Assembly: GCA_013373175.1 (NCBI GenBank)
Contig: JABXII010000020.1
Coordinates: forward strand, 1-64,000
Length of the DNA: 64,000 nucleotides
Direction of reading: 5' to 3'
From: Campylobacteraceae bacterium
GTDB lineage: Bacteria > Campylobacterota > Campylobacteria > Campylobacterales > Arcobacteraceae
Within the stretch, counting starts at the first letter, position 1, and each line of letters opens with the position of its first letter. Below are positions 14,930 to 44,560 of the stretch, piece after piece. The notes under the pieces were generated by a model. That model saw only the letters and a program-made list of their open reading frames with translations, did not search any database and was not told the origin of the DNA. A program made the position numbers and the translations under genes.

Positions 14930-15934
14930 ATGTTCGATGATTTGAATTTTCTTGATAAAAGTATAGCATATAATATATATATAGTTAGAACTCCTTTTCA
15001 ATTTATTAATGCCTATGAAACATTAGATTATTTTAAAACAAAAAACAATATTTTAGTAATAATTGATAATGGAACTGCAAATAATAAAAAACAGCTAACT
15101 CAACAATTAGATGAAAAATATTGGGATTTAATTATTCGTTTTGGAGACCAAGATTCTAGTAACTTTATGAATTATGTAAACTTAATTAAAAAAATTAAAA
15201 AATTAAATATTGAAACACTATTTACAAGTAGTGGTTTTAATAAAATGCAGCAAATAATAATTGCAAATGTTAACTCTAAAAAAACATGTTTTTTTGACCA
15301 AGGAACTGGAACAATATTAACTTACAAACTTTTCAAAAATAATGAAATTAATAAGTTTAATTTAAAAAAATTGAGATTTATTTTTCTTGGATTAAAAACA
15401 AAAATTGATAAGCAAATAGATTTCTTTACAATGTTTGATTTTAAAGACTTAGAAAAGTCAAAAATTTATAGAAATAATTATGACTTTGCAAAGAAAAAGT
15501 ATAATCTAAACAATAAAAAAATAGTCGATGAAGTATTCATTATAGGACAAAAATTAGTTAAATCAAAAATGGTAACAGAAAAAGAGTATTTTATTTATTT
15601 AGATAATATTTTGAATAAATATAAAGGCTTTAAAATTAATTATCTTATGCATAGAACTGAAGATAAAGAGTATCTACTTAAAAATGCTTATGATAAAAAA
15701 ATGAATTTACTTGATAGTACAAAACCTGGAGAATTATATTTTTTAGAAATGGATATTCAACCTAAATATATTATAGGGAATGTTTCAGCCTTGCTTATCT
15801 CATTAAAATATATATTTAAAGATATTAATATTATTTCTTATAAATTTAAAGATAAAAGATTTTTAGCAAATACTGAATACCAATTAGCTTATGACAATAT
15901 GAGTGTAAGTGGAATAAAGATTATTGAATTATAA
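14930..15934 (+). CDS. Sialyltransferase-like (GT52-type) glycosyltransferase, paralogue 1
   Basis: A 334-residue protein with the pattern of GT52 and related CMP-sialic-acid transferases. It opens with an IVRTPFQFINA motif at the first strand. It has a D/E-x-G-type loop (DQGTGT near 124) and a YLMHRTED segment resembling the HxR/HP-type CMP-binding motif. A GNVSALL segment near 285 occupies the position of the conserved Ser motif. It is clearly paralogous to the minus-strand gene at 22046-23062; both share FTMFD, IIGQ, MHR and GELYF blocks. It may transfer a CMP-activated ulosonic acid to the LPS core. Assignment to GT52 is by motif recognition, not by alignment. Confidence 0.6.
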   Translation: MFDDLNFLDKSIAYNIYIVRTPFQFINAYETLDYFKTKNNILVIIDNGTANNKKQLTQQLDEKYWDLIIRFGDQDSSNFMNYVNLIKKIKKLNIETLFTSSGFNKMQQIIIANVNSKKTCFFDQGTGTILTYKLFKNNEINKFNLKKLRFIFLGLKTKIDKQIDFFTMFDFKDLEKSKIYRNNYDFAKKKYNLNNKKIVDEVFIIGQKLVKSKMVTEKEYFIYLDNILNKYKGFKINYLMHRTEDKEYLLKNAYDKKMNLLDSTKPGELYFLEMDIQPKYIIGNVSALLISLKYIFKDINIISYKFKDKRFLANTEYQLAYDNMSVSGIKIIEL

Positions 15935-15975: not shown

Positions 15976-16611
15976 ATGATAAAAGTAATTTTTTTTGATT
16001 TTGATGGCGTTATTTTAGACTCAATGCCAATAAGAGACTATGGTTTTAGAAAAATATTTGAAAATTATCCTAATGAGCTAGTAGATAAATTGATTTCTTA
16101 TCATCAATCAAATGGTGGATTATCAAGATTTCATAAGATTAGATATTTTTATAATGAATTATTAAAAAAAGATATTTCTGAAGAAAGAATAGAAGAATAT
16201 GCAAATAAGTTTTCAGAAATAATGAAAGAACAACTTACCAATAAAAAATATTTAATTTCACAAACAGTAAATTTTATTCAAAAAAACTATAAAAACTATA
16301 ACTTACATATAGTATCTGGTTCAGAACAAAATGAATTAAGATATTTATGTGAAAAACTTGATGTATCAAAATACTTTATTACAATAGAAGGCTCTCCTAC
16401 ACCTAAAAATGATTTAGTAAAAAATAGATTAAAAAATGAGAGTTATAATTCAAATGAAGCAATACTTATTGGTGATAGCATAAATGATTATGAAGCAGCA
16501 AATATTAATGGTTTAAAATTCTTTGGTTTTAATAATATTGAATTAAAAGAAAAAGATGAGTATATAGATAGTTTTGAAAAGTTTGATATAAAGGATTTTT
16601 CTTGCAAATAG
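15976..16611 (+). CDS. HAD-superfamily phosphatase, subfamily I
   Basis: This is a soluble 211-residue hydrolase with motif I DFDGVILDS near residues 8-16, motif II IVSGS near residue 116, and motif III/IV GDSINDYEAA near 167. These are the nucleophile Asp and metal-site residues of phosphoglycolate-phosphatase-like HAD enzymes. A helical cap domain lies between motifs I and II. In this setting it could dephosphorylate a sugar-acid phosphate, in the way KdsC or the NeuB-linked phosphatases do, possibly serving the aldolase/CMP-synthetase fusion 3 kb downstream. That link is inferred from proximity. It overlaps the next gene by 10 nt. Confidence 0.8.
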   Translation: MIKVIFFDFDGVILDSMPIRDYGFRKIFENYPNELVDKLISYHQSNGGLSRFHKIRYFYNELLKKDISEERIEEYANKFSEIMKEQLTNKKYLISQTVNFIQKNYKNYNLHIVSGSEQNELRYLCEKLDVSKYFITIEGSPTPKNDLVKNRLKNESYNSNEAILIGDSINDYEAANINGLKFFGFNNIELKEKDEYIDSFEKFDIKDFSCK

Positions 16612-17891
16612 CTGAAAATAAAAAGTATGATTGGTATACTTATTATATATTTTTTTATATATTCATAACACCTTGGCATTTTTCAAAAGCTCAATTATCT
16701 ATATCGTCTTCAATTGCATTGATTTGGACTATATTTAAATATAAAAAAGAGCTAATATTAAAAATTAAAGAGTATATCAAATTTTTACCTATACTTTTAA
16801 TGTTTTTATTTTTTGCATATTCTTATTTAAGTTCTTTATGGAGTGAACCTATTTCAAAAGGTTTTGAACACGTAACTAACTTTTATAAATATTACTTTAT
16901 GATCATTCCAATTTTATTAGTTTCTTTAAATAAAGAAAATGCAATAAAAGCATTTAAAATTCTTATTATAAGTTTTAGTTTATATGGAATATATACTTTT
17001 TTTATTTATTTTGGAATTTTAAATGATAATAACATGTCTTTTTTATATAATGATGAAAATGGATTTAATTCTTATAATCCTACTGGCCATTTAAGATATT
17101 TAATTGTTTCCCAATATATGGTGATTGCATTCTTTTCTGGTATTTTATTGTCATCCTATTCAAAGAATAAAAAAGAAAAATCTTTATTTATTATAGTATC
17201 TTTAGTATCTTTTATATCTTTATTTATTAATAATAGTCGAACGGCTCAATTATCATTTATAGTAATACTTTTAATTTTAATAGTTTTATTTTTCAAAAAA
17301 AGTATTTTCAAAATTAAGAACATAATATTAATTTCTATTGTTTTTATTTCAATTATATATTTTGTGCAAGGTAATAAACTTGAACGATATAAAACATCAT
17401 ATAAAGAATTAAACCAGGCAATAACAAATAATACTTATGATGGTAGCTTTGGACTAAGACTTTATTTAACAAAAACAGGATTAGAAATTTTTTCAAATAA
17501 TATATTATTTGGTACAGGACCAAAAGATAATAGAATGCTTCTTATGGATATTGCAAGAGAAGATCCTCATTATAAAGGAGCAAAAAATGAGAAAGATCTA
17601 CTAAATCATTTTCATAGTGAACAAATGGATACTTTAACCGCATATGGTCTAGTAGGTTATTCTTTACTATTTTTTAGTATTATTTTATTAGTTTATAAGT
17701 TAAGAAAAGAACCTTTATATTATTATTTAAGTTTATCAGTATTTTCAACACTATTTATTAATTCTTTTGCAAATAAAACTTTATCAGTAAAACCTTTAAA
17801 TTATGTCTATATGATACTATTTATTCTTTTTGTTATAATTGCATATAAATTAGAGAAAGAAGAAAAGGAAAAAATTGAAAATAACAGCTAA
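16602..17891 (+). CDS. O-antigen ligase-like (WaaL/Wzy) membrane protein
   Basis: A 429-residue integral membrane protein with about ten to twelve predicted transmembrane stretches and a large hydrophilic loop around 245-340. That is the layout of the Wzy_C/O-antigen ligase family. The segment NNSRTAQLSF before a long hydrophobic helix is the conserved Arg region of this family, and the loop contains the usual GLRLYLTKTGLEIF pattern. In the middle of core genes, a ligase (WaaL) joining O-chain or another glycan to the lipid A-core is the better guess; the second membrane protein of this type at 57919 lies among O-chain genes and is the better polymerase candidate. Start is TTG with an AAAGG site. 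Confidence 0.72.
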   Translation: MQIAENKKYDWYTYYIFFYIFITPWHFSKAQLSISSSIALIWTIFKYKKELILKIKEYIKFLPILLMFLFFAYSYLSSLWSEPISKGFEHVTNFYKYYFMIIPILLVSLNKENAIKAFKILIISFSLYGIYTFFIYFGILNDNNMSFLYNDENGFNSYNPTGHLRYLIVSQYMVIAFFSGILLSSYSKNKKEKSLFIIVSLVSFISLFINNSRTAQLSFIVILLILIVLFFKKSIFKIKNIILISIVFISIIYFVQGNKLERYKTSYKELNQAITNNTYDGSFGLRLYLTKTGLEIFSNNILFGTGPKDNRMLLMDIAREDPHYKGAKNEKDLLNHFHSEQMDTLTAYGLVGYSLLFFSIILLVYKLRKEPLYYYLSLSVFSTLFINSFANKTLSVKPLNYVYMILFILFVIIAYKLEKEEKEKIENNS

Positions 17892-18618
17892 TATAATTAC
17901 ATTAAATGAAGAAAAAAATATAGAAGCTGTAATAAAATCAGTAAAAGAGGTTTGTGACGAGGTTTTAGTAGTTGACTCATTAAGTACTGATAAAACTTGT
18001 GAAATTGCTGAAAACTTAGGTGCAAAAGTTATAAAACAAGAGTATTTAGGCGATGGCCCTCAAAAAGCTTTTGGGGAACCACTTGCAAAATATGATTGGG
18101 TACTAAGTATTGATGCTGATGAGAGATTAGATTTAAATGCAATTGAAGAGATTAAAAAACTTGATTTAGATAATACACAATATGATGGGTTCTCTTTTGC
18201 TAGAAAAACTTATGTAGGAGATAACTTTATAAAACTTTGGTATCCAGACAGAGTAACAAGACTTTATAATAGAGAGAAATGTGGATATTCAAAAGTAAAA
18301 GGTCATGCAAAGGTTGAAGCTAAAAATATTTGTGATTTAAAAGCTGATATGCTTCATTACTCTTATGAAGATTACATTCATATGATTAGAACAACTGAAA
18401 AGTTTATAAAAAGGGGAGCTCAGATTTCATACGATGCAGGAAAAAGAGCAAACTCTTTTGATCCTTTTATTCATGGAGTAGGAGCTTTATTTAAGGCTTT
18501 AGTTCTAAAAGGTGGAGCTTTTCATGGAATTAATGGTTGGAATGTAGCTGTAATTTCTGCATATAGTTCTTACATGAAATATGCTTTAATGCTTGAGATG
18601 CAAAAGAATGAAAAATAA
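17875..18618 (+). CDS. Glycosyltransferase family 2, WaaE/KdtX type
   Basis: This 247-residue GT-A enzyme begins TANIITLNEEKNI, has the VVDSLSTDKT loop near 33-42 and the metal-binding DADERLD motif near 83, all typical of the WaaE/LgtF branch of GT2. Members of that branch add a beta-1,4-linked glucose or similar to the first heptose of the inner core. C-terminal half carries GALFKALVLKGGAFHG, an amphipathic, possibly membrane-associated stretch also common in the branch. TTG start with an AAGGA site 17 nt inside the preceding gene. Cytoplasmic face of the inner membrane. Confidence 0.87.
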   Translation: MKITANIITLNEEKNIEAVIKSVKEVCDEVLVVDSLSTDKTCEIAENLGAKVIKQEYLGDGPQKAFGEPLAKYDWVLSIDADERLDLNAIEEIKKLDLDNTQYDGFSFARKTYVGDNFIKLWYPDRVTRLYNREKCGYSKVKGHAKVEAKNICDLKADMLHYSYEDYIHMIRTTEKFIKRGAQISYDAGKRANSFDPFIHGVGALFKALVLKGGAFHGINGWNVAVISAYSSYMKYALMLEMQKNEK

Positions 18619-19705
18619 TAAGATTTTAGAAGTTTGTTTATCTCCTGATTTAGGAGGTTTGGAGCTTTATATGAGTAGATGTACAAATGAATTATCAAAG
18701 AGTTTTGATGTTTCGTGCTTAGTCGCTTCAAAATCAAAACTTAAAGATTTCATTCAAGATGTTCAAAAATTTGAAATAAATAGAAAAAGTAGCTTTTCTA
18801 TAAGTGCATCTTTGAAATTAGCAAAAATCATTGATAAACAAAATATTGATATTATTCATCTTCATTGGACAAAAGACCTTCCAATTGTTGTGCTTGCTAA
18901 AATCTTTTCAAAAAGAAAACCAAAGATTGTACAAACAAGACATATGACAATGACAAGATTTAAAAGTGATTTTTATCATAAGTTTTTATATAAAAATATT
19001 GATACAATTATTTGTGTTACAAAAGCTTTAGAAGAGCAAATAAAAAAATTTATTCCCCAAAATATTAGACCTAAAACTTTAACTTTATATCTTGGAGCAA
19101 ATGAAAGTAAATTTTTAAGCAATGAACAAATACGAGACTTCAAACAAGAGTTAAAAGTAGAAGACTCTTTTATGTTAGGACTTATTGGAAGAATTAATGA
19201 GTTTAAAGGGCAACATTTACTTATAGAAGCTATGAAAATTTTAAAAGCAAAAGAATTAAATATCAAAGCTTATATTATTGGGTCTCCTATGAGTGAAGAT
19301 TATTTACAGCAGTTAAAACAAAAAGTTAAAGATTTTAATTTAGAAGAGCAAGTTATCTTTGTAGGTTTTACAAAAGAACCAGCAAAGTTTATGCAAGCTT
19401 GTGATGTAGTTTTAATGACTTCAAAAAATGAAACTTTTGGTTTAGTTACCATTGAAGCCATGAGAAATGGTAGCTGTGTTATTGGTTCAAACTCTGGTGG
19501 AGTTTTAGAGATAATAGATGATGAAAAAACTGGGTTATTATTTGAAAGTGGAAATTATGAAGATTTAGCTTTAAAGATAGAGAAGCTATATAAAGATGAA
19601 GCTTTAAGAGAAAAACTTGCTAAAGCAGGACAAAAAAAAGCAGAAGAGTTTTTTGATAATAAAAAACAGTTTGATAAGTTAATTAATTTCTTTAAAGAAT
19701 TTTAG
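18608..19705 (+). CDS. Glycosyltransferase, GT4-type
   Basis: A 365-residue GT-B enzyme. The acceptor loop is DLGGLELYM near the N-terminus. The donor domain shows LIGRINEFKGQHLLIEA, IIGSPMSEDY, VIFVGFTKEPAKFM and a KNETFGLVTIEAM motif with the two Glu residues of EX7E. It probably extends the LPS core in the cytoplasm; donor unknown. I preferred ATG 18608 (MKNNKILEV) over a TTG at 18593, since the ATG places GLELYM at the family-typical distance and has a GAGATG site before it. It overlaps the GT2 gene by 11 nt and is followed 34 nt later by the fusion gene. Confidence 0.86.
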   Translation: MKNNKILEVCLSPDLGGLELYMSRCTNELSKSFDVSCLVASKSKLKDFIQDVQKFEINRKSSFSISASLKLAKIIDKQNIDIIHLHWTKDLPIVVLAKIFSKRKPKIVQTRHMTMTRFKSDFYHKFLYKNIDTIICVTKALEEQIKKFIPQNIRPKTLTLYLGANESKFLSNEQIRDFKQELKVEDSFMLGLIGRINEFKGQHLLIEAMKILKAKELNIKAYIIGSPMSEDYLQQLKQKVKDFNLEEQVIFVGFTKEPAKFMQACDVVLMTSKNETFGLVTIEAMRNGSCVIGSNSGGVLEIIDDEKTGLLFESGNYEDLALKIEKLYKDEALREKLAKAGQKKAEEFFDNKKQFDKLINFFKEF

Positions 19706-19739
19706 TTAACATATTTCAATTATTTAAAAAAGGAAAGTT

Positions 19740-22049
19740 TTGAGTATTAAAATTTTAGATTGTACTTTAAGAGATGGTGGATATATTAACGATTGGAATT
19801 TTAGCAATCAACAAATTAATAAAATAATTAAATCTTTAGATGAGTCAAATGTTGATATTATTGAGTGTGGATATCTTAATTCAAAAGATGGCCAGGACTC
19901 AAATTCTACTTTATTTAAAGATTTAAAGCAGATTGATAATTTTATTAATGTCTCAAATAATTCTAAAAAAGTAGCAATGATAAACTTTTTGGATTTTGAC
20001 CCTAAAAACTTACCTTCATCTGAAGAAACAGCAATAAAGGGAATTAGATTAGCTTTTCATAAAAAAGATATAGAAAAAGCATTGGAAAGTGGCGCAGAAA
20101 TAAAAGAAAAAGGTTATGATCTTTATTTTCAACCGATGATTACTAAAAATTATAGTGATTTAGAGTTTTTAGAAGTATTAGAAAAAGTAAATAAGCTTAA
20201 TCCTTGTGCTTTTTATATTGTTGATAGTTTTGGTTCAATGAGTTTAAAAGAGTTTACAAGATATGTAAACTTAGCTGATAATAATTTAGCTGAAGAAATA
20301 GCATTAGGTTATCATTCTCACAATAATATGCAACTTGCCTTTTCTAATGCAATTAGTCTTTGTATGGCAAGATTAAATAGAGATATAATCTTAGACTCAA
20401 GTATTTATGGAATAGGACGAGGAGCTGGAAATTTAAATACTGAACTTATTTTTGACTTTATGAATAAAACTTTTAATACTGATTATCAAACAATGCCTTT
20501 ATTAGAAGTTATAGATGATTTTTTAAACTCTTTAATGCATGAAAACCCTTGGGGCTTCTCTCCTGCACAATTCTTATCTGCAGCATTTAATTGTCATCCT
20601 AATTATGCAACATATTTAATTAATAAGAATACAAAGCATATCACAGAAATAAGTCAAATGCTTAGTCTTATACCTATGGATAAAAAATCAAGTTTTGATA
20701 AGAATTTCATAGAACAAATCTATTTAGATAATTATGTTAATTCTCCTAAAAGTAATTTAAATAATGAATTAGAATTTGATAAAAATAAGAAAATACTTCT
20801 AATTGCTTCTGGACCAAGTATAAGTGAGTATGAAACAGTAATAGAAAATAAAATTTCAAGTGGTGAATATATTATTGTAAGTTTAAATCATAATTCAAAG
20901 TTTAGTTCAGATTATTACTTTTTTACAAATCAAAAAAGATATGACGAGTTTTCACAATCAATTGATTTGTCTAAAACAATTATTTCAAATAATATTCAAT
21001 CTTCGCATAATGTATTTTCAACTATTGATCTTAGTAAATATTCATCTTTCTCAAATCAAGTTTTTACAAATGTATCTTTAATTGCAATTAATATGTTTCT
21101 ACAAAAAGGTTTTAAAGAAGTAGAAATAGCTGGTCTTGATGGTTATAATACTGATAAAATGGAAAACTATAATTATCATGAAACAACACAAATACATGAC
21201 AAAAAAGCCTTAGAAGAAGAGAACCAAACTTTATTAGGAGGACTTAGAGCTTTAAATGAAAAGATATTAATTCATTTTGTTACTCCTTCTTTATTTAAAG
21301 GAGAATTGAAACTTAGCATTATTGGAGTAATTCCTGCAAGATATAAATCAAGTAGATATGAAGGTAAACCTTTAGCTTTAATTAATGGTATTCCTATGAT
21401 AAAAAGAACATATGAGCAAGCAAAAAAATCAAAATTGCTTGATGAACTTGTTGTTGCAACAGAACATATAAAAATAAAAGAGTATTGTGAAAGTGAAAAT
21501 ATACCAGTTGTTATGACCACAGATAACTGCTTAACAGGTACTGATAGAATTGCAGAAGTTGCACAAGAAAAACATTTTGATTTATATGTAAATATTCAAG
21601 GGGATGAACCTGTAATTGATCCTAAAAGTATTGATGAAGTTGTTAATGAGTATAAGCTTTATCAAGATGAATATGTAGCATATAATCTTTACAAAATAAT
21701 TGATGATGAAAGTGAAGTAATTGCAAATACTATTATTAAAACAATAGTAAATGAAAAAGATGAACTAATGTATATGTCAAGACTTGGTATTCCTTTTAAT
21801 AAGTCAGAAAAAGATGTAAAGCATAAAAAACAAGTATGTGTTTATGGTTTTACAAAAAAAGCACTTGAACTATTTTCTTCAAGAGATAAGACTGTAAATG
21901 AGCAATTTGAAGATATTGAAATTTTAAGATTTGTAGATATGGGATATAAGGTTAAAATGAAAGAAACTTTTGTTGATTCAATAGCTGTTGATATTCCTGA
22001 GGATGTACAAAAAGTAGAAGAGTTTTTAAAGCAAAGAGGATTAAATTAA
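19740..22049 (+). CDS. Three-domain fusion: pyruvate aldolase-like (HMGL/DmpG), Rossmann-like middle domain, KdsB-like CMP-sugar synthetase
   Basis: The 769-residue product has three parts. Residues 1-340 form an HMGL/DmpG-type TIM barrel: LDCTLRDGGY at the N-terminus, the metal-binding GYHSHNN, and YGIGRGAGNLNTE. Such enzymes make 4-hydroxy-2-oxo acids from pyruvate and an aldehyde or the reverse. Residues 346-520 hold IASGPSI and EIAGLDGYN motifs resembling DUF115/CstII-type Rossmann domains. Residues 526-769 are a full-length KdsB-like CMP-3-deoxy-octulosonate cytidylyltransferase (IPARYKSSRYEGKPL, GTDRIAEV, VNIQGDEPVIDP, VDIPEDVQKVEEFL). An aldol product that is CMP-activated on the same chain is a reasonable inference. 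TTG start with an AAGGAAAG site. A terminator overlaps the stop. Confidence 0.85.
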   Translation: MSIKILDCTLRDGGYINDWNFSNQQINKIIKSLDESNVDIIECGYLNSKDGQDSNSTLFKDLKQIDNFINVSNNSKKVAMINFLDFDPKNLPSSEETAIKGIRLAFHKKDIEKALESGAEIKEKGYDLYFQPMITKNYSDLEFLEVLEKVNKLNPCAFYIVDSFGSMSLKEFTRYVNLADNNLAEEIALGYHSHNNMQLAFSNAISLCMARLNRDIILDSSIYGIGRGAGNLNTELIFDFMNKTFNTDYQTMPLLEVIDDFLNSLMHENPWGFSPAQFLSAAFNCHPNYATYLINKNTKHITEISQMLSLIPMDKKSSFDKNFIEQIYLDNYVNSPKSNLNNELEFDKNKKILLIASGPSISEYETVIENKISSGEYIIVSLNHNSKFSSDYYFFTNQKRYDEFSQSIDLSKTIISNNIQSSHNVFSTIDLSKYSSFSNQVFTNVSLIAINMFLQKGFKEVEIAGLDGYNTDKMENYNYHETTQIHDKKALEEENQTLLGGLRALNEKILIHFVTPSLFKGELKLSIIGVIPARYKSSRYEGKPLALINGIPMIKRTYEQAKKSKLLDELVVATEHIKIKEYCESENIPVVMTTDNCLTGTDRIAEVAQEKHFDLYVNIQGDEPVIDPKSIDEVVNEYKLYQDEYVAYNLYKIIDDESEVIANTIIKTIVNEKDELMYMSRLGIPFNKSEKDVKHKKQVCVYGFTKKALELFSSRDKTVNEQFEDIEILRFVDMGYKVKMKETFVDSIAVDIPEDVQKVEEFLKQRGLN

Positions 22050-22064
22050 AAGTCCTCTTTTTTT
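22033..22064 (+). terminator. Intrinsic terminator spanning two convergent stop codons
   Basis: An 8-bp perfect inverted repeat, AAAGAGGA at 22033-22040 and TCCTCTTT at 22053-22060, surrounds a 12-nt loop and runs into a T-tract ending at 22064. The loop holds the overlapping stop codons of the + strand fusion (TAA 22047-22049) and the minus-strand GT52-like gene (complement of 22046-22048). The T-tract makes it strongest for + strand transcripts; in the minus direction the tail is poorer. Confidence 0.75.
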
Positions 22065-23062
22065 ACAAATTTAATCTTTTCTTTTTCAAAAGATTTATAG
22101 TTATTGTAGAACCATTCATGTTCTGCTAATATTTCATTATCTTCAAAAACATAAGATAGAATGTCTAATTTAGGGAAAAACTTTTTAAGTGAAAAAAGTA
22201 AAGTACTAGCTGTCCCAATAATCATAAATGGTTGATAAGATAGTTGAATAAAATATAATTCTCCCATAGTATCACTTTTTAATATTTCTAAGTTTTTATA
22301 TTTAGAAGTTAAAGGCTCAAACTTATCTTCTAACTCTTTTCTATGCATCATATATGTAATCTTGCAATTAGGATATTTTTTTATAATTGCTTCAATAAAT
22401 CCTAGGTATGTTTCAAGAGATAAATATTTTGTTTCAACATGTTGTTGCCCAATTATAAATATTTTATCTTGTGATTTTTCTTTTGATTCTATTTCATATT
22501 TTTTTCTTAGATATTCGAAATTATGTTTATGTACTTTGTATTCTTTTAATTTAGGTAAATCAAACATTGTAAAAATCTCAAAGCTATATTTTTTCTTTAG
22601 GTTTAATCCTAGAAGATAAAATCTGTAAAGTTTTTTCTTAAAAGAAAAAAGAGGTTTCTTATTTATAATTCTATCGATTAATCTAAATGTAATAGTACCA
22701 TCTTCTAATAATATTAATTTATTATATTCTATATTTGAAAGTAAAAGTTGATCATTTGCTAAAAAACTATTTTTTATAAATACATAATTATATTTTTCTT
22801 TTTTTAGTTCTTTTATATGTTTTGCAAGTTTAAAGAAGTTACTACCTTTTTCCTCTTCATAAATTAAAACTTTGTCCCAAAAATCATAATCAATAAGGTT
22901 TTTTAATTGAGCTTTATGTTTCTCTGGATTATTATAGTTTAAAACTACAATTAAGTGATTGTTTGTAAGTTTAAAATAGTTCACTGCTTCTTGAGCACTA
23001 AGTAATTGAAAAGGAAACCTAATTATAAAAAGGTTTGAAGAAGTAGAATCTTTATTTATCAT
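22046..23062 (-). CDS. Sialyltransferase-like (GT52-type) glycosyltransferase, paralogue 2
   Basis: The only complete minus-strand gene in the window. Product of 338 residues from the ATG at 23062: LFIIRFPFQLLSAQEA at the first strand, the LLEDGTITF loop (a D/E-D/E-G motif) near 130, IIGQQHVETKY, YMMHRKE and GTASTLLFSLKKFF near the C-terminus. These match the CMP-sialic-acid transferase pattern, and the protein is a paralogue of the 14930 gene. I chose the ATG at 23062 over an upstream TTG/ATG (23158/23152): an AAGG site lies 6 nt upstream and the resulting N-terminus aligns with the paralogue. It converges on the fusion gene and diverges from the first YrbL gene. Confidence 0.65.
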   Translation of the reverse strand: MINKDSTSSNLFIIRFPFQLLSAQEAVNYFKLTNNHLIVVLNYNNPEKHKAQLKNLIDYDFWDKVLIYEEEKGSNFFKLAKHIKELKKEKYNYVFIKNSFLANDQLLLSNIEYNKLILLEDGTITFRLIDRIINKKPLFSFKKKLYRFYLLGLNLKKKYSFEIFTMFDLPKLKEYKVHKHNFEYLRKKYEIESKEKSQDKIFIIGQQHVETKYLSLETYLGFIEAIIKKYPNCKITYMMHRKELEDKFEPLTSKYKNLEILKSDTMGELYFIQLSYQPFMIIGTASTLLFSLKKFFPKLDILSYVFEDNEILAEHEWFYNNYKSFEKEKIKFVKKEDF

Positions 23063-23143
23063 TTTGAACCTTATGAAGTTAATAGCCCGTGATTTTACCA
23101 TTTTTTTCTTGTTTGTCCTATTAGATAGAAATTTAATTTTTGA

Positions 23144-23169
23144 TATAATCATTTTCAATTATATATACT
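23144..23169 (+). promoter_or_regulatory. Candidate promoter of the YrbL/kinase block
   Basis: In the divergent gap between the minus-strand GT gene and the YrbL gene, a TATAAT (23144-23149) and a TATACT (23164-23169) precede the ATG at 23185, with an AGGAGA ribosome site at 23174-23179. The first box gives a leader of about 30 nt, the more plausible choice. No -35 box is evident, as usual for this phylum. Confidence 0.45.
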
Positions 23170-23184
23170 AACTTAGGAGAATTA

Positions 23185-23775
23185 ATGATAGTTTTAAAAG
23201 AAGAAGATTTTATTGGAAAAGGAAATGAAAGAGCTTGCTATCTTCATCCTGATGATAAAAATAAAGCTATTAAAGTTAGTTATGATCAAGAAATAGGTCG
23301 GTCAAAACAAAGTGATACGGAAATTAAATATTATAAAAAACTTTTAAAAAGAAAGAAATTATCTTGGAAACATTTACCTAAATTTTATGGAGAAGTTCAA
23401 ACAAATAAAGGAAAAGGATTTGTTGTAGAATTAATCAGAGATTACGATGGAGAAGTGTCAAAAAGTTTTAAATATTATATAGAAAAAGATGGATTACAGA
23501 AGTACAAAAAAGAGTTAGAAAATTATAAAAACTATTTACTAGAAAACTACATCATTTTTAATTATGGAATGATGCAAGGAAATATTCTTTTAAGAAAAAA
23601 TAGTGAGATTGATTTTGATTTAGTGCTAATTGATGGATTAGGAGATGTGGCTCATTTTACATTATTTAATGAGATACCTTATTTTGCAAGAAGAAGAATA
23701 ACAAGAAGATGGAATAAGTTTGTTAATAAATATTTGCAAGAAGATTGGATAGAAAAACATAGAGATAAAAAATAG
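23185..23775 (+). CDS. YrbL-family protein, copy 1 (kinase-like fold)
   Basis: A 196-residue homologue of E. coli YrbL, the PhoP-regulated protein of kinase-like fold. Shared features: IGKGNERACYLHPDD near the N-terminus, AIKVSYD (the Lys strand), an LPKFYGEVQTNKGKGFVVELI hinge region, and a C-terminal VLIDGLGD segment in place of the DFG-like motif. The catalytic-loop equivalent reads NYGMMQGNIL, lacking an Asp, as also in E. coli YrbL where Ser is found. Biochemical function of the family is not established; its place among LPS genes suggests phosphorylation or binding of core sugar. Two further copies lie at 27299 and 27904. Confidence 0.85.
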   Translation: MIVLKEEDFIGKGNERACYLHPDDKNKAIKVSYDQEIGRSKQSDTEIKYYKKLLKRKKLSWKHLPKFYGEVQTNKGKGFVVELIRDYDGEVSKSFKYYIEKDGLQKYKKELENYKNYLLENYIIFNYGMMQGNILLRKNSEIDFDLVLIDGLGDVAHFTLFNEIPYFARRRITRRWNKFVNKYLQEDWIEKHRDKK

Positions 23776-26365: not shown

Positions 26366-27306
26366 TGAATCTTCTTATTACAAGACATGATAAAATAGGT
26401 GATTTTGTTGTAACTTTACCTTTAATTAAAGCTATAAAAGAACAATATCCAAGAACTAAGATTACAGTATTAGTTAGCAAAATAAATTTTGACTTTGCAA
26501 AAGAGATAGATTTTATAGATGATGTAATTTTATTTGATAAAAACAATTTAAACAAAACTTTGGTTGAAATAAAAGAGAAAAAATTTGATGCAAGTATTAG
26601 TGCATATATCGACACAATTCTAGGTAAACTTCTTTTTAAAAGTAGAATAAAAATAAGAGTTGCTCCTGCTACAAAAATAGCGCAAATCTTCTTTACTAAA
26701 AAAATAACTCAACGAAGAAGTAAAGTAGAAAAGACTGAATGGCAATATAATTTAGATTTAGCAAAAACTCTTTTCCCTAACATTAGTTTAGATTTTTCAA
26801 GACCAGTAATTACAACACATACTTCATATCAAGCAACAAAAAAAAGAGTTATTTTGCATCCAGGTTTTGGAGGAAGTAGTGATGGAAATTTATCTTTGGA
26901 TGATTATATAAAGCTTGCTAGAAAAGCAATGCAAACTTCATACAAAGTTGTTTTTACTTTTGGACCAGATGATAAGTCTTCTAAAGATTATATTTCTTCT
27001 AAACTTACAGTAGATGAAAAAAGTAAAATAGAGCTTTTTGATTCAAAGATACCTTTATTTGAGTTTACAAAATATATTGCATCATCTTATCTTTTTGTTA
27101 GTACTTCAACTGGACCTATGCATCTTGCTGGTGCTACAAATACTAAGACAATATCTTTTTTTGGTGATTCTTTATTTGCTAGTTCAAAAAGATGGGCAAC
27201 AATTAGTGAAGAAGAAAATCAAAATAATTTTATGCTTTCAAGTGAATACTCAAAAGAAAAGTATAAAGAAATAGAAAATTGTTTAATGGAACTTTTGAAT
27301 GACTAA
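26365..27306 (+). CDS. Heptosyltransferase-family (GT9) glycosyltransferase
   Basis: A 313-residue GT9 protein, third of its family in the window. The N-terminal loop is RHDKIGDFVVTLPL; the C-terminal donor motif is STSTGPMHLAGAT near residues 246-258. At the place of the Asp conserved in WaaC (Asp259) and WaaF (Asp243) this protein has Ser248, so its donor or mechanism may differ from a normal ADP-heptose transferase. It could be a heptosyltransferase III (WaaQ-like) adding a side-branch heptose. GTG start, overlapping the kinase gene stop by 1 nt and the next YrbL start by 8 nt. Confidence 0.83.
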   Translation: MNLLITRHDKIGDFVVTLPLIKAIKEQYPRTKITVLVSKINFDFAKEIDFIDDVILFDKNNLNKTLVEIKEKKFDASISAYIDTILGKLLFKSRIKIRVAPATKIAQIFFTKKITQRRSKVEKTEWQYNLDLAKTLFPNISLDFSRPVITTHTSYQATKKRVILHPGFGGSSDGNLSLDDYIKLARKAMQTSYKVVFTFGPDDKSSKDYISSKLTVDEKSKIELFDSKIPLFEFTKYIASSYLFVSTSTGPMHLAGATNTKTISFFGDSLFASSKRWATISEEENQNNFMLSSEYSKEKYKEIENCLMELLND

Positions 27307-27889
27307 AAAGTTAGTTTTAAATGAAAAGTATTTTTTAGCAAAAGGTGGAGAAAGGAACTGTTATATTCATCCAAAAGATGAAAATAAAGTCATAAAAATT
27401 GTTCATAGAAATGAAAAACATAATGAACAAAATAAGTTAGAATATAAGTATTATAATTTTTTACAGAAAAAAAATAAACCTTTGACTCATTTGACTAAAT
27501 GTTATGGTTTTATAAATACTAATTTAGGTTTGGGATTAATGTACGAAAGACTCAAAGATTATGATAGCAATCCATCTAAGTCTTTTAGAATATATTTAGA
27601 AGAAAAAATATTTACTAAAGAAGAAGAAAATAAGCTAGTTAGCGAATTAAAAGACTATTTATTTAAAAATGATATTTTATTTATTGATGTAGATTTGAGT
27701 AATGTTTTTTGTCAAGAGTTTATGAAAGACAAATATAAACTTGTAATAATAGATGGACTAGGTGCAAGAAGGTTAAATTGGAGATTTTATACATACCTTT
27801 ATTCAAAGGCATTTACTCGATATAAGATAAAAAAACAATGGAAAAAGTTTTTTGAAAACTTTAAGAAGTATAGTACTTATTATAAATAA
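27299..27889 (+). CDS. YrbL-family protein, copy 2
   Basis: A 196-residue YrbL homologue. It has LAKGGERNCYIHPKDENKVIKIVHR near the N-terminus, LTHLTKCYGFINTNLGLGLMYERL in the middle, and a loop FIDVDLSNVFCQ with Asp and Asn in positions closer to an active kinase than copy 1, followed by VIIDGLGARRL. It is most similar to copy 3, which follows 14 nt later (DVxLSNVFCQ and DGxG shared), so the pair looks like a tandem duplication. Possible role in decorating or sensing LPS core; unproven. Overlaps the GT9 gene by 8 nt. Confidence 0.83.
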   Translation: MTKKLVLNEKYFLAKGGERNCYIHPKDENKVIKIVHRNEKHNEQNKLEYKYYNFLQKKNKPLTHLTKCYGFINTNLGLGLMYERLKDYDSNPSKSFRIYLEEKIFTKEEENKLVSELKDYLFKNDILFIDVDLSNVFCQEFMKDKYKLVIIDGLGARRLNWRFYTYLYSKAFTRYKIKKQWKKFFENFKKYSTYYK

Positions 27890-27903: not shown

Positions 27904-28518
27904 TTGAGTTTTATAAATTTAAATAAAAAGCATTATTTAGGTAAAGGTAGAGAACGAGCATGCTATCTACATCCTACTGATGATACGAAGGTAATAAAGG
28001 TAGTTTATAAGCCTTTGGAAAATTTAAATCAAAATCAATTAGAGTACGAATATCTAAAATATTTAGAAAAAAAAGATATTCCTTTTTCTCATCTTTCAAA
28101 ATGTTATGGAAAAGTTCATACAAACCTTGGGGAAGGTTATGTTTTTGAAAGAATAAAAGACTATACAGGTGAAACATCAATATCTTTTAAAAACGTTGTA
28201 ATGAATGGACTTCTTTCTTCAAAACTTGAAATTGAACTTTTAGATGAGTTAAAGAATTATTTACTTGAAAATAGTATTATTTTTGTTGATGTAGCTTTAA
28301 GTAATGTATTTTGTCAAAAAATTTCAGAAGATAAATATAAATTAGTTTTAACTGATGGAATAGGTGGGAAAAGAATAGGGCTTAAATCAAAACTTTACTT
28401 GTATTCAAATCTTTTTACAAAGTATAAAGTCAAAAAACAATTAAAGAAACTTGATTCAAGATATAAAAAAGTAATTAAACAAGGAATAGATGCTAAAACA
28501 AGGTTATTAAGTGAATAA
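27904..28518 (+). CDS. YrbL-family protein, copy 3
   Basis: A 204-residue YrbL homologue starting at a TTG preceded by an AAAGGG ribosome site. Motifs: LGKGRERACYLHPTDDTKVIKVVY, FSHLSKCYGKVHTNLGEGYVFERI, VDVALSNVFCQ (Asn retained, Asp one step earlier than in copy 2) and VLTDGIGGKRI. Close relation to copy 2 suggests a recent local duplication followed by divergence. The stop overlaps the GTG of the glycoside-hydrolase-like gene by 8 nt. The function of YrbL proteins is unknown. Confidence 0.83.
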   Translation: MSFINLNKKHYLGKGRERACYLHPTDDTKVIKVVYKPLENLNQNQLEYEYLKYLEKKDIPFSHLSKCYGKVHTNLGEGYVFERIKDYTGETSISFKNVVMNGLLSSKLEIELLDELKNYLLENSIIFVDVALSNVFCQKISEDKYKLVLTDGIGGKRIGLKSKLYLYSNLFTKYKVKKQLKKLDSRYKKVIKQGIDAKTRLLSE

Positions 28519-34424: not shown

Positions 34425-35432
34425 ATGAAGATATTAGTCACTGGAGCAGCAGGTTTTATAGGTTTCCATTTAGTAAAAAAACTTCTTGAAAGAGGAGATG
34501 AAGTACTAGGATTAGATAATATTAATGATTACTATGATGTAAATCTTAAATATGCAAGATTGAATGAACTTGGAATAAATAAAGATGAAATCAAAGAAGA
34601 TAAATTAATTAAATCTTCAATTTTTTCACAACATAAATTTATTAAAATAAATCTAGAAAATAAAGAAGCGATGAATAAACTTTTTGAAAATGAAAAGTTT
34701 GATGCTGTATGTAACTTGGCCGCACAAGCAGGAGTAAGATATTCGCTAGAAAATCCTCATGCTTATATTCAATCGAATGTAGTAGGATTTATGAATATAC
34801 TTGAGGCTTGCAGATACTATGGTGTAAAGAACTTATCTTATGCTTCCTCTTCTTCTGTATATGGACTAAATAAATCTCAACCATTCAGAACTACTGATAA
34901 AACAGATACGCCAATAAGTCTTTATGCTGCAACAAAAAAGTCAAATGAACTTATGGCACATACATATAGTCATCTTTATGGGATTAAGACTACAGGACTT
35001 AGGTTCTTTACAGTATATGGACCATGGGGAAGACCTGATATGGCACCTATGCTTTTTGCAGATGCAATTACAAATGATAGACCAATAAAGGTATTTAATC
35101 ATGGAAATATGAGTAGAGACTTCACTTATATAGATGATATTGTAGATGGAATAGTAAAAGTTATAGACTGTCCTCCTTCTCTAACCTCTAACTATAGGAT
35201 CTATAATATAGGGAATAATGCTCCTGTATCATTAATGAAATTTATTGAAACTTTGGAACGTTCATTTGGAAAAGAATCTAAAAAAAACTTTTTACCAATT
35301 CAAAAAGGTGATGTAGAAACTACATATGCAGATGTAACTAGTTTGATAAATGATTTTAATTATAAGCCAAGTACAAAACTCTTTGATGGTATTAATAATT
35401 TTGTAAAGTGGTATAAAGGATTTTATAAATAA
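34425..35432 (+). CDS. NAD-dependent epimerase, UDP-glucuronate 4-epimerase type
   Basis: A 335-residue extended SDR beginning with GAAGFIGFHLVKKLLERG. LDNINDYYDVNLKYARL is a stretch highly characteristic of UDP-GlcA 4-epimerases (and of related epimerases in capsule loci). SSSSVYG with the following YAATKKSNE give the catalytic Ser/Thr, Tyr and Lys. It would convert UDP-glucuronate to UDP-galacturonate, fitting the ugd gene 8 nt upstream. Galacturonate in the O-chain or core is therefore likely. The 1-nt overlap with kpsF indicates one operon. Confidence 0.9.
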   Translation: MKILVTGAAGFIGFHLVKKLLERGDEVLGLDNINDYYDVNLKYARLNELGINKDEIKEDKLIKSSIFSQHKFIKINLENKEAMNKLFENEKFDAVCNLAAQAGVRYSLENPHAYIQSNVVGFMNILEACRYYGVKNLSYASSSSVYGLNKSQPFRTTDKTDTPISLYAATKKSNELMAHTYSHLYGIKTTGLRFFTVYGPWGRPDMAPMLFADAITNDRPIKVFNHGNMSRDFTYIDDIVDGIVKVIDCPPSLTSNYRIYNIGNNAPVSLMKFIETLERSFGKESKKNFLPIQKGDVETTYADVTSLINDFNYKPSTKLFDGINNFVKWYKGFYK

Positions 35433-36382
35433 TGAATATTTTAAATATAGCAAAAGAAGTATTTGAAGTGGAATCAAAAGAAATATTAAAGTTATCAAAG
35501 TTTTTGACAATTGACTTTGAACAAGCTGTCAATGCAATTTATAATTCAAAAGGTAAGCTTATAGTTTGCGGTATGGGGAAATCAGGTATAATAGGTAAAA
35601 AGATAGCAGCAACCTTGGCTAGTACTGGAACTCCTAGTTTTTTTTTACATCCTGGGGAGGCATACCATGGTGACCTTGGCATGATAGAAAATGAAGATGT
35701 CATTTTACTTATTTCAAATTCAGGTGAAACAGATGAAGTATTAAAATTAATACCTTTTTTAAAAAATCAGGGTAATATAACTATATCTATGACTGGTAAA
35801 CCTAAATCGACTTTATCAATTAATACAAACTATCATCTAAATATAGCAATTGAGAAAGAAGCTTGCCCTTTACAACTTGCTCCAACAAGTTCTACTACAG
35901 CAACATTAGTTATGGGTGATGCATTAGCGATTGCCTTAATGAGATTAAAACAATTTGAGGATAAAGATTTTGCACAATTTCATCCTGGTGGTACATTAGG
36001 AAAAAAACTTCTTACAAAAGTTGAAAATGTTATGAAAAAAGACAACTTACCAACATGCAATAAAAATGAAAATATAAAAAAAGTTATTCATAAAATTACA
36101 GATGGGAAATGCGGATTGGTTGTAGTTATAGAAGATGATTCAATTAGCGGTATAATAACAGATGGTGATATTAGAAGGGCTATGGAAAATAACGAAGAAG
36201 AGTTTTTTTCTTTAAAAGCGAATAATCTTATGAGTTCTAATCCTAAAGTAATAGAAAAAGATGAAAAATTAACAACTGCAAGTGCATTAATGAATACTTA
36301 CAAAGTAAATTCACTTTTAGTTGTAGATGAAAATAATATTTTAACAGGTATTGTTCAAATATATGATTTTGAAGTATTATAG
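35432..36382 (+). CDS. kdsD: Arabinose-5-phosphate isomerase (SIS + CBS domains)
   Basis: This 316-residue KpsF/KdsD/GutQ-family enzyme interconverts ribulose 5-phosphate and arabinose 5-phosphate, the first step to Kdo. The SIS domain (about 35-165) has VCGMGKSGIIGKKIAATLASTG, HPGEAYHGDLG and ISNSGETDE. Two CBS repeats occupy about 200-316. It may be the only Kdo-pathway isomerase of the cell, or a second, cluster-specific copy. The nearby KdsB-like domain of the fusion gene raises the possibility that both serve a Kdo-like sugar, but they are 13 kb apart. Confidence 0.92.
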   Translation: MNILNIAKEVFEVESKEILKLSKFLTIDFEQAVNAIYNSKGKLIVCGMGKSGIIGKKIAATLASTGTPSFFLHPGEAYHGDLGMIENEDVILLISNSGETDEVLKLIPFLKNQGNITISMTGKPKSTLSINTNYHLNIAIEKEACPLQLAPTSSTTATLVMGDALAIALMRLKQFEDKDFAQFHPGGTLGKKLLTKVENVMKKDNLPTCNKNENIKKVIHKITDGKCGLVVVIEDDSISGIITDGDIRRAMENNEEEFFSLKANNLMSSNPKVIEKDEKLTTASALMNTYKVNSLLVVDENNILTGIVQIYDFEVL

Positions 36383-41800: not shown

Positions 41801-42862
41801 ATGAAAGTACAGTTAACAAAAAATAAAGAACTATTTAATTACTGTAAACCATACGTAATTGCAGAATTAGGATCAAATCATAATGGTAATATGGATTTAG
41901 CTAAAAAACTTATAATACAAGCTAAAGAAGCTGGAGCAGATTGTGTTAAGTTCCAAAGTTGGTCAAAAGATACTATTTTTGCAAAAAAGAAATATGATGA
42001 TAATTATTTTATTGCAGATGACTATAGAGATAGAAATGACTATACTCTTGAAGAAATAGTTGATGAATATTCTATTTCAGAAGAAGAATTATTAGATATG
42101 AAAAAGTTTGCTGATGAAGTTGGAATTGATTGCACTTCAACACCTTTTAGTAAGAAAGAAACAGATTTTTTAGTAGATAAATTAGAGAGCCCTTTTATAA
42201 AAGTAGCTTCTATGGATTTAAATAACTATCCTTTTTTAGAATATTTAGCAAAAAAGGGAAAGCCTATTGTTATTTCAACAGGACTTAGTGAATTATATGA
42301 AATAGATAGAGCTGTTAAGACAATAGAAAATACTGGGAATAACCAAATAGTTATTTTACATTGTGTATCAACTTATCCCCCAGTTGATAGTGATGTTCAT
42401 TTAAATAATATTAAAACTTTGATGGCAACTTATCCTGAATATCCTATCGGTTTTTCTGATCACACTTTAGGTACAGCTATTCCTATTGCATCAGTTGCAC
42501 TAGGTACTTGCCTGATTGAAAAACATTTTACTCTTGATAAAAATATGGAAGGTTGGGATCATAAGGTTTCAGCTACAAAAGATGAAATGAAAGAGATAGT
42601 AGAAAATTCGCAAAGAATTAGTGATGCGATGGGCTCTTTTAGAATAGCTGCAACTGAAAGTGATGAAAAGAAAAGAGAATTTAGAAGAAGTATAGTTTTA
42701 ACTAGAGAAATAAAAAAAGGTGAAATTATAGCTTATCAAGATATAGATTATAAAAGACCTGGTGGTGCATTTGATCCAGAAATGACAGAATTTATAGTAG
42801 GAAGAACTGTAAATAAAGATTTAAAATATGATCATATTTTGACAATAAAAGATATAGTATAA
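41801..42862 (+). CDS. legI: Legionaminic/N-acetylneuraminic acid synthase
   Basis: A 353-residue NeuB-family enzyme that condenses phosphoenolpyruvate with a 2,4-diacetamido-hexose to form a nonulosonic acid. The TIM barrel starts YVIAELGSNHNGNMDLAKKLI, includes AGADCVKFQSW, TPFSKKE, KVASMDLNNYPFL, STGLS, ILHCVSTYP and SDHT motifs. The C-terminal SAF/antifreeze-like domain begins at EFRRSIVLTREIKKGEII near residue 288. In context with legB/legC it is assigned as LegI rather than sialic acid synthase. Preceded by a GAGGA ribosome site. Confidence 0.92.
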   Translation: MKVQLTKNKELFNYCKPYVIAELGSNHNGNMDLAKKLIIQAKEAGADCVKFQSWSKDTIFAKKKYDDNYFIADDYRDRNDYTLEEIVDEYSISEEELLDMKKFADEVGIDCTSTPFSKKETDFLVDKLESPFIKVASMDLNNYPFLEYLAKKGKPIVISTGLSELYEIDRAVKTIENTGNNQIVILHCVSTYPPVDSDVHLNNIKTLMATYPEYPIGFSDHTLGTAIPIASVALGTCLIEKHFTLDKNMEGWDHKVSATKDEMKEIVENSQRISDAMGSFRIAATESDEKKREFRRSIVLTREIKKGEIIAYQDIDYKRPGGAFDPEMTEFIVGRTVNKDLKYDHILTIKDIV

Positions 42863-42871
42863 GGTGAAGTT

Positions 42872-43864
42872 GTGAATATAAAAGAAGAAGAAATTAGACC
42901 AGTAGTAATCTCTAACTACAATAGAGAAGTTTTATTTTACGAAGATATAGAACTTTTTCATAAAAAATTTAAGAATGATTTAATTAAAGTAGAAAAATGT
43001 ATAGCTTGTGATTGTAGGAATATTTACTTTATATTCAATAAAGATGGATTTGAATTTAGTAAATGTAATAGTTGTAAGACAGTCTTTGTTTCATCAAGAC
43101 CTAATGATTTTCAGTTAAAGTGGTGGTATACACATTCAAAATCACAACTTCATTCAGTTAAAATCCTTGAATCTACACAAGATGCTAGAAAAGCTCTATA
43201 TGAAAGAAGAGTTGACTTGTTTTTAGATAGAATTGACAAAGAAGTTAAAACATTCTTAGAAATTGGACCTGGTAATGGTCAGTTGTTAGAAATTATAAAA
43301 AATAAGATTAATGGTTCATATGTAAAAGGGATTGATTTAAATCCAAATGCAGTTGATGCATGTAATAAAAAAGGGATTGATTGTGATGTTGTTGACATAA
43401 ATGATATGGCAGGTAAAATAAATGAAAAATATGATGCTATCATGGCTTTTGAAGTATTAGAACATTTACCAAATGTTAAAAAATCTATTAAAAATGTTTC
43501 TGAAACATTAAATGAAGGTGGTATATTTTATGGAACTTTGCCTAATTACCAAGGGTATGATTTTCTTGAAATTGGTCAAGTTTATAGAAACTTATTCGCA
43601 CCGACACACCTAAACTATTTTAATCCTAAATCATTAGAGATTTTATTGAAAAAAAATGGTTTTAAAGAAGTTGAAATTATAACTGATGGGGTTCTTGATG
43701 TGAGTTTGGTAGAAAGTTATAACAAAGTAAAAAAAATTAAGCTGTCTGATTTTTGGTCAATGATATATGAGAATGATGAATACAAAGATTTTTTAAGTGA
43801 ATTTCAAAATTTATTATCTAAGTATAAGTTATCAGGCAATATGACCTTTATTGCGAGAAAATAA
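42872..43864 (+). CDS. Zinc-ribbon plus SAM-dependent methyltransferase
   Basis: This 330-residue protein has an N-terminal zinc-ribbon-like pair, CIACDC near 46-51 and CNSC near 67-70. These precede a class I methyltransferase core (FLEIGPGNGQLLEII for SAM binding, GIDLNPNAVDACNKKGI, AFEVLEHLPN). This layout is known from sugar C- or N-methyltransferases in nucleotide-sugar or glycan pathways, though fold similarity does not give the target. Being directly between legI and legF it may methylate the nonulosonic acid or its N-acyl group. GTG start with an AAGGTGAAG site. No membrane region. Confidence 0.78.
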   Translation: MNIKEEEIRPVVISNYNREVLFYEDIELFHKKFKNDLIKVEKCIACDCRNIYFIFNKDGFEFSKCNSCKTVFVSSRPNDFQLKWWYTHSKSQLHSVKILESTQDARKALYERRVDLFLDRIDKEVKTFLEIGPGNGQLLEIIKNKINGSYVKGIDLNPNAVDACNKKGIDCDVVDINDMAGKINEKYDAIMAFEVLEHLPNVKKSIKNVSETLNEGGIFYGTLPNYQGYDFLEIGQVYRNLFAPTHLNYFNPKSLEILLKKNGFKEVEIITDGVLDVSLVESYNKVKKIKLSDFWSMIYENDEYKDFLSEFQNLLSKYKLSGNMTFIARK

Positions 43865-43867
43865 TTT

Positions 43868-44560
43868 ATGATAGCTATTATACCAGCAAGATGCGGTTCT
43901 AAAGGATTGCCAGGTAAAAATATTAAAAACTTACTTGGTAAACCAATGATGGCTTATACAATAGAAGAAGCTTTAAAATCTAAATATATAAGTGAAGTAA
44001 TAATATCTACTGATTGTAAAGAGATAGAAGATGTAGCTTTAAAATATGGAGCAAAAAGTCCATTTTTACGACCTGAATATTTATCAAGCGATAGTGCCAA
44101 AGCAATTGATAACTATATCTATACTATTGATAAACTAAATAGTAAATTTGATTATGATATAAATAAGTTTATAGTATTGCAGCCAACTTCACCTCTAAGA
44201 ACTGTAGAAGATATAGATGGGGCAATTGAGCTTTTTAAAGAAAAAAAAGCTGATAGTGTAGTTAGTTATACAGAAGAACATCATCCAATAGAGTGGCATA
44301 AATACATCACTGAAGATGGTAAGTTTGAAAATATATTTGAAGAAAAACTTTTAAATCGTCAAGAAATAAAAAGAAGTTACTATCCAAATGGTGCAGTGTT
44401 TGTTTTTGATTATGAACTAATAAAACAAAATAAATATTATAGTAATAACTCTTATGCTTATATAATGCCAAGATTTCGATCTATCGATATAGATACTATT
44501 GAAGACTTTAAATATGTAGAGTTTTTATTAGAGTATAAGAGAAGGAATAATAATGATTAA
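43868..44560 (+). CDS. legF: CMP-legionaminate/CMP-sialate synthetase
   Basis: A 230-residue NeuA-family cytidylyltransferase that activates a nonulosonic acid with CTP. The nucleotide loop IPARCGSKGLPGKNI opens the protein, ISTDCKEI and LRPEYLSSDSAKAIDNY follow, and VLQPTSPLRTVEDI near 98-111 is the second family motif. RSIDIDTIEDF near the C-terminus is the metal/sugar-binding Asp region. Its placement behind legI makes CMP-legionaminic acid the expected product. It differs from the KdsB-like domain at 21.3-22.0 kb, so the window encodes two unrelated CMP-ulosonate synthetases. Confidence 0.92.
   Translation: MIAIIPARCGSKGLPGKNIKNLLGKPMMAYTIEEALKSKYISEVIISTDCKEIEDVALKYGAKSPFLRPEYLSSDSAKAIDNYIYTIDKLNSKFDYDINKFIVLQPTSPLRTVEDIDGAIELFKEKKADSVVSYTEEHHPIEWHKYITEDGKFENIFEEKLLNRQEIKRSYYPNGAVFVFDYELIKQNKYYSNNSYAYIMPRFRSIDIDTIEDFKYVEFLLEYKRRNNND

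Follow-up and report, generated by a model that had tools for sequence, protein, structure and literature searches.

Can a single bacterial polypeptide both build an ulosonic acid and activate it with CMP? A central place in bacterial surface glycans belongs to Kdo and the nonulosonic (sialic-like) acids, which are known as products of PEP-dependent synthases; two of these, KdsA and NeuB, draw the irreversibility of their reaction from PEP. The gene at positions 19740–22049 of the window (the whole 64,000-nucleotide stretch of Campylobacteraceae DNA analysed here) raises the question because it was originally predicted to encode a DmpG-type aldolase that makes a 3-deoxy-ulosonic acid from pyruvate, fused to a KdsB-type domain that activates it. 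Among open-licence papers, a literature search gave nothing relevant on the fusion, on the pairing of such an aldolase with a CMP synthetase, or on the NCBI product name.

Domains of the fusion protein

Positions 19740–22049 form one uninterrupted open reading frame of 769 amino acids, with a TTG start at 19740 (preceded by AAGGAA at 19730–19735) and a stop at 22049. A Pfam search of the whole protein places an HMGL-like domain (PF00682) at residues 3–252 (E 1.4e-20) and CTP_transf_3 (PF02348) at residues 528–732 (E 4.8e-38), and returns no match for the residues between them. The structure, predicted from a 48-row alignment of the window protein and fetched proteins, is confident throughout (mean pLDDT 93.6), and in this model the fusion consists of three well-folded domains:

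19740–20744, plus strand: aldolase domain (residues 1–335), a metal-dependent HMGL/DmpG-type TIM barrel with C-terminal helices (from PF00682, structural matches and invariant residues)
20775–21299, plus strand: middle domain (residues 346–520), a Maf/MptE/GT42 (CstI, CstII)-like fold (from the predicted structure and structural matches)
21315–22049, plus strand: CMP-ulosonate synthetase domain (residues 526–769 and the stop codon), KdsB/KpsU type with the changed motif KQVCVYGF (from PF02348 and NF003952)

The Pfam and structural matches thus bear out the domain calls of the original prediction, and the motifs that it quoted lie where it placed them: DCTLRDGGY at residues 7–15, HSHNN at 192–196, GPSI at 358–361, GLDGY at 465–469, and the KdsB motifs from about residue 529.

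The first domain had been called an aldolase, and both its fold and its residues agree. In structural comparisons the barrel gives Z 30.9 to 3dxi (the putative, functionally uncharacterised aldolase BVU_2661 of Bacteroides) and Z 29.3 to DmpG (1nvm). DmpG/BphI is a class II pyruvate aldolase that joins pyruvate to aldehydes (PMC3962088). R11, D12, R103, H192, H194, N196 and W271 are invariant in the 37 aldolase rows of the family alignment; in the alignment to 1nvm, R11/D12 and H192/H194 fall on the Arg-Asp and His-x-His of DmpG, so that none of the metal and pyruvate residues has been lost. The His that follows RDG in DmpG (TLRDGSH) is, in contrast, Tyr15 in the fusion and Tyr or Phe in all 37 rows; 3dxi likewise has Tyr at the position of this catalytic His. 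Beyond the barrel, Y289 is invariant and H286 is present in 36 of the 37 rows. The predicted active site hence appears to keep the pyruvate/metal part of DmpG and to differ in the acid-base part, whose chemistry would not be simply that of DmpG.

An ordinary 4-hydroxy-2-oxovalerate aldolase of aromatic degradation was considered and rejected: the fusion scores 88 bits against the corresponding NCBIfam model (TIGR03217), far below the cut-off of 286, and its neighbours are glycan genes. Among the recurrent neighbours of the aldolase loci there is no acylating dehydrogenase partner of the kind that DmpG has. The fusion family therefore shares with DmpG/BphI and 3dxi the barrel fold and the pyruvate/metal residues, and differs from DmpG/BphI in its biosynthetic glycan setting, its Tyr in place of the catalytic His, and its additional Maf-like domain. 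The window genome also encodes a second HOA-like aldolase (L003:1435–2409, on G000:C11), a 324-residue protein with no middle domain that lies away from glycan genes, near an ABC-type ATPase and a methyl-accepting-chemotaxis-like gene; similar proteins of 322–330 residues are common in the family. It was discarded as a duplicate of the fusion's function, being only 28% identical, lacking the middle domain and having other neighbours.

The middle domain had been guessed to resemble CstII/DUF115 folds, and structural realignment proved the guess right. Modelled alone (pLDDT 91.9), the domain realigns with the Maf flagellin glycosyltransferase (Z 12.4), MptE (11.5), SteA (10.8), CstI/CstII (9.2–9.9), thiamine pyrophosphokinases (about 7–9) and mammalian sialyltransferases (7.0–8.4); below this fold family, scores drop to Z 4.8. 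In sequence the likeness to Maf, CstI/CstII and MptE is only weak: searched alone, 10 of 37 members match PF01973 (best E 5.6e-4); hhalign against MptE-like neighbours gives 94.9%. A Foldseek search with the domain gave nothing under E 0.001. What sets the domain apart from these proteins is also its position between an aldolase and a synthetase.

The domain could act as a transferase, bind a nucleotide sugar or serve as a scaffold. As a tentative addition to our main reading, a middle domain acting as a Maf/GT42-type glycosyltransferase would unite synthesis, activation and transfer of the sugar in one polypeptide; the structural scores against Maf, CstI/CstII and mammalian sialyltransferases, which stand well over background, and the conserved motifs G-x-S, N, SN-x-KR and AGxDG are consistent with this. 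However, the same fold serves pyrophosphokinases (MptE, thiamine pyrophosphokinase) and SteA, so that fold does not equal function; no candidate catalytic His is evident among the conserved motifs of the domain; and separate candidate transferases are encoded close to the window fusion. Moreover, the domain is also present in loci without a nearby synthetase, including relatives paired with a thiamine pyrophosphate (TPP) enzyme, which argues against a strict CMP role.

The third domain superimposes end to end on KpsU (1gqc; Z 34.3, 1.8 Å over 242 residues). It passes the cut-off of the NCBIfam KdsB subfamily NF003952 (232.6; cut-off 193), falls just below that of NF009905 (252.1; cut-off 255), and lies below that of the kdsB equivalog TIGR00466 (130.6 bits; cut-off 155.2). 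Motif comparison shows that the CTP-side cytidylyltransferase motifs are kept. Compared with the CMP-Kdo synthetases KpsU/KdsB (1gqc, 3k8d), then, the fold and the CTP side are the same, whereas the window domain is fused to an aldolase, is under the kdsB equivalog cut-off and has a changed motif on the sugar side. The motif concerned is KHVGIYAY of KpsU, which we take to contact the sugar in KdsB: it reads KQVCVYGF in the window subgroup, while the genome's own KdsB keeps the His, and the other aldolase-linked synthetases have yet other residues at this position. Kdo is bound by the C-terminal domain of KdsB (PMC3149649). The altered and variable motif suggests that the ulosonic acid product is probably not simply Kdo, and that products probably differ among the synthetase subgroups.

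Gene neighbourhood in the window

The fusion gene is part of a long series of surface-glycan genes, all on one strand. The neighbours that matter here are:

14930–15934, plus strand: polysialyltransferase-like protein, candidate CMP-ulosonate transferase (homologue of 22046–23158)
15976–16611, plus strand: HAD hydrolase (HAD_2, PF13419; phosphoglycolate phosphatase/beta-PGM-like), probable phosphatase partner
16602–17891, plus strand: O-antigen ligase/polymerase type protein (Wzy_C, PF04932), glycan context
17875–18618, plus strand: family 2 glycosyltransferase (PF00535) in the same gene run, with synteny in G304
18593–19705, plus strand: GT4-type glycosyltransferase (PF00534) directly upstream of the fusion, with synteny in G304
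22046–23158, minus strand: second polysialyltransferase-like protein, candidate CMP-ulosonate transferase, convergent with the fusion (homologue of 14930–15934)

The two polysialyltransferase-like proteins have no Pfam match by themselves; in their family alignment, 6 of 13 members match the alpha-2,8-polysialyltransferase model PF07388 (best E 2.7e-12). The HAD hydrolase is of the same family as the HAD that directly adjoins the aldolase in seven other loci (L007, L008, L009, L013, L014, L038 and L039); its best NCBIfam matches are of the beta-PGM and phosphoglycolate phosphatase types, with no KdsC-type match. In a genome of the same genus (G304) the HAD gene abuts the fusion, and upstream of the two stand genes whose lengths correspond to those of the GT4, GT2, polysialyltransferase-like and sulfatase-like genes in the window. 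By these lengths, the window locus contains the same gene set, rearranged.

The window genome has its own KdsA and housekeeping KdsB; here, therefore, the aldolase-synthetase system is an addition to normal Kdo synthesis. Other genes of related interest lie further along the window. Positions 35432–36382 encode a second arabinose-5-phosphate isomerase of the KpsF/KdsD family (over cut-off), the other copy being on contig C18; as proof of an arabinose-5-phosphate substrate it is weak, because of that other KdsD and a distance of 13 kb. A nonulosonic-acid cassette at 41801–47119 comprises a NeuB-type synthase (41801–42862), a NeuA-type synthetase (43868–44560) and, after these, two N-sugar amidotransferase-like genes and HisH/HisF-like genes. 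Three small YrbL-like kinase-fold proteins (23185–23775, 27299–27889 and 27904–28518) are encoded within 6 kb of glycan genes; PF10707 is confirmed for the first only.

Recurrence of the fusion and of the gene pair

The three-part fusion exists as originally described and is not unique: it recurs in eight genomes (that of the window plus L007, L013, L014, L038, L039, L040 and L067). One of the other hosts is a member of the same genus (L007), two come from the same phylum sample (L013, L014) and two are named Campylobacterota (L038, L039); the last two are a Verrucomicrobia bacterium (L040) and, from the Bacillota, Pseudogracilibacillus auburnensis (L067). The fusion is thus spread over three phyla: Campylobacterota, Verrucomicrobiota and Bacillota. 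Since it is found in seven genomes besides that of the window, and since the predicted fold is confident, an assembly artefact or a chance join is excluded.

The original prediction also proposed looking for the same two functions as adjacent genes, and in most relatives the pair is indeed present as separate genes. Genome contigs were scanned with two conserved aldolase stretches, blind to the neighbouring genes, which gave 80 loci; the pairing counts cover the 68 of these that have both the aldolase and the middle domain, and enough flank. In 49 of the 68, a CMP-ulosonate synthetase is either fused to the aldolase (4 loci) or encoded within 300 bp of it (23 of KdsB type, 22 of NeuA type). 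Within the same distance there is a HAD hydrolase in 24 loci, a TPP enzyme in nine and a PfkB kinase in five. When the same genes are placed at random in the same loci, a synthetase is expected to adjoin the aldolase in 7.8 loci (observed: 45) and a HAD in 4.5 (observed: 24), figures that describe a strong association rather than a p-value, the loci being partly related by descent. The fusion is thus the joined version of a common gene pair. Recurrent neighbours also include GT52 and polysialyltransferase-type proteins.

In the aldolase tree, the fully supported clade that contains the window protein has nine members: four fusions with a KdsB-type synthetase, and five aldolases adjoining a NeuA/PseF-type synthetase. 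Within one aldolase clade, then, the synthetase gene appears to have been exchanged between types while the predicted activity persists, as functional coupling would predict. Some genomes of the same order (L012 with G172:C10:6915–14075; G371:C11; G103) carry two or three distinct members of this aldolase family and, close to them, several NeuA/KdsB-type synthetases, which suggests several ulosonic acids in one organism.

Two further kinds of neighbour bear on the chemistry. PfkB kinases adjoin the aldolase in six loci; all six match the kinase half of a KHG/KDPG-aldolase/kinase protein (E 6.5e-98 to 5.8e-182) and also match KDG/KDGal kinases, with scores below the curated cut-offs. By sequence they would belong to a family of kinases acting on 2-keto-3-deoxy sugar acids, a hint at the very compound class that a pyruvate-aldose aldolase would yield. 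In ten loci (L073, L077, L081, L083, L085, L088, L101, L105, L108 and L114), the aldolase and Maf-like protein adjoin an acetolactate-synthase-like TPP enzyme and never a CMP-sugar synthetase. A TPP enzyme that decarboxylates or condenses a 2-keto acid would represent a different sugar-making route. With roughly a quarter of the relatives lacking a synthetase next door, and nine paired with a TPP enzyme, the aldolase family serves other ends as well.

These relatives point to other chemistry in the family and, together with the DmpG His-to-Tyr replacement and the varied sugar-side motifs of the linked synthetases, they could be accommodated by a barrel that is active on a different donor or towards a different product (the donor might be 2-oxobutyrate, for instance, or the product a branched or non-sugar 4-hydroxy-2-oxo acid), the product then being activated with CMP by a relaxed KdsB-like domain. 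We consider this improbable, given that R11, D12 and His-x-His, the holders of pyruvate and metal in DmpG, are invariant, and that the neighbouring KDG-type kinases speak for 2-keto-3-deoxy sugar acids.

Probable source of the ulosonic acid and the proposed route

Sixteen carrier genomes were searched for KdsA (TIGR01362) and NeuB (PF03102, a match over 120 bits being counted as strong). KdsA passes its cut-off only in the window genome and in the Polaribacter, Verrucomicrobia and Fusobacterium carriers, and strong NeuB is found only in the window genome, Gottfriedia, Polaribacter, the Verrucomicrobia MAG and a Lachnospiraceae MAG. In this profile search of draft genomes, 10 of the 16 carriers (Pseudogracilibacillus, Bacillus sp. 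EAC, two Paenibacillus, Desulfosporosinus, Proteocatella, Lactimicrobium, Flavonifractor, Robinsoniella and a Roseburia MAG, the only MAG of the ten) have neither KdsA over cut-off nor full-strength NeuB. Their weak matches to the two models fall at the same places, which is what DAHP synthases would give.

Nine of these ten, all nine Gram-positive, hold a clear CMP-sugar synthetase; the exception is Desulfosporosinus, whose aldolase pairs with a TPP enzyme. Pseudogracilibacillus has no clear synthetase apart from the fusion. Because nine synthetase carriers thus lack KdsA and a real NeuB, the aldolase appears to be the only visible source of the synthetase substrate in them, although a synthase of some other family may be present.

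The same carriers weigh on another explanation of the fusion, in which the C-terminal domain is an accessory CMP-Kdo synthetase supplied by the housekeeping KdsA pathway, and the aldolase acts separately, for example by breaking down or buffering excess ulosonic acid. The window genome does have KdsA and a housekeeping KdsB, the closest structure is KpsU, a capsule CMP-Kdo synthetase, and aldol reactions of the pyruvate aldolase type are reversible. Yet both KdsA and a real NeuB are missing from nine Gram-positive synthetase carriers, one of them a host of the fusion; the sugar-side motif KHVGIYAY is altered; the partner synthetases may be of NeuA type; and a degrading aldolase joined to an activating enzyme would presumably waste that enzyme's substrate. 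We therefore regard this explanation as improbable.

We consider it likely, instead, that the fusion has two functions, possibly three, and makes a CMP-activated 3-deoxy-2-ulosonic acid. The original proposal of a DmpG-type aldolase feeding an attached KdsB domain is in this way supported in outline by genomic context: by the fusion in eight genomes, the adjacency of the separate genes, the KdsB/NeuA swap, the KDG-type kinase neighbour and the carriers without KdsA or NeuB. The reaction, its direction and the order of its steps, as we infer them, would be as follows: (i) the N-terminal metal-dependent barrel would bind pyruvate and form its enolate, (ii) the enolate would attack, without PEP, the aldehyde group of an aldose, free or phosphorylated, yielding a 4-hydroxy-2-oxo acid with CH2 at C3, that is, a 3-deoxy-ulosonic acid, (iii) if the aldose is phosphorylated, the phosphate would be removed by the HAD hydrolase encoded nearby, (iv) the KdsB-like domain would couple the free ulosonic acid to CMP from CTP, and (v) a transferase, either among the polysialyltransferase-like proteins encoded nearby or in the form of the Maf/GT42-like middle domain, would place the sugar on a surface glycan. 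CMP coupling in the attached domain would draw the reversible aldol step forward, which would explain both the fusion and the tight adjacency of the separate genes.

The logic of such a route is that of KdsA-KdsC-KdsB and NeuB-NeuA: three carbons are added onto an aldose, a phosphate is removed where present, and the product is activated with CMP. The differences are a predicted pyruvate aldolase in place of a PEP-dependent synthase, a HAD hydrolase of another type than KdsC, and the occurrence of the aldolase-synthetase pair in genomes without KdsA/NeuB. A reaction of the proposed type has a counterpart in 3-deoxy-octulosonate (Kdo) aldolase (EC 4.1.2.23), which reversibly joins pyruvate and D-arabinose to Kdo. 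This enzyme appears, graded "difficult", in a survey of enzyme activities without sequence (PMC1940265).

Our best reading of the aldolase-synthetase pairing is that it represents a widespread and so far undescribed route, independent of PEP, by which CMP-activated 3-deoxy-ulosonic acids are supplied to surface glycans. Since the pairing recurs across many phyla, Gram-positive bacteria without the textbook synthases among them, a major class of cell-surface sugars seems to have a second route of synthesis. A bolder version, which we find rather doubtful as a whole, has the route widespread in Bacillota, Bacteroidota, Campylobacterota, Melainabacteria and others, giving a family of undescribed 3-deoxy-ulosonic acids, with the fused form building, activating and transferring the sugar. 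If a pyruvate aldolase does supply these acids across many phyla, a whole class of ulosonic acids escapes prediction of surface sugars from genomes, also in gut Bacillota without KdsA and NeuB, and the fusion would be a one-polypeptide catalyst that converts pyruvate, an aldose and CTP to a CMP-sugar, offering a direct test of the sugar's identity.
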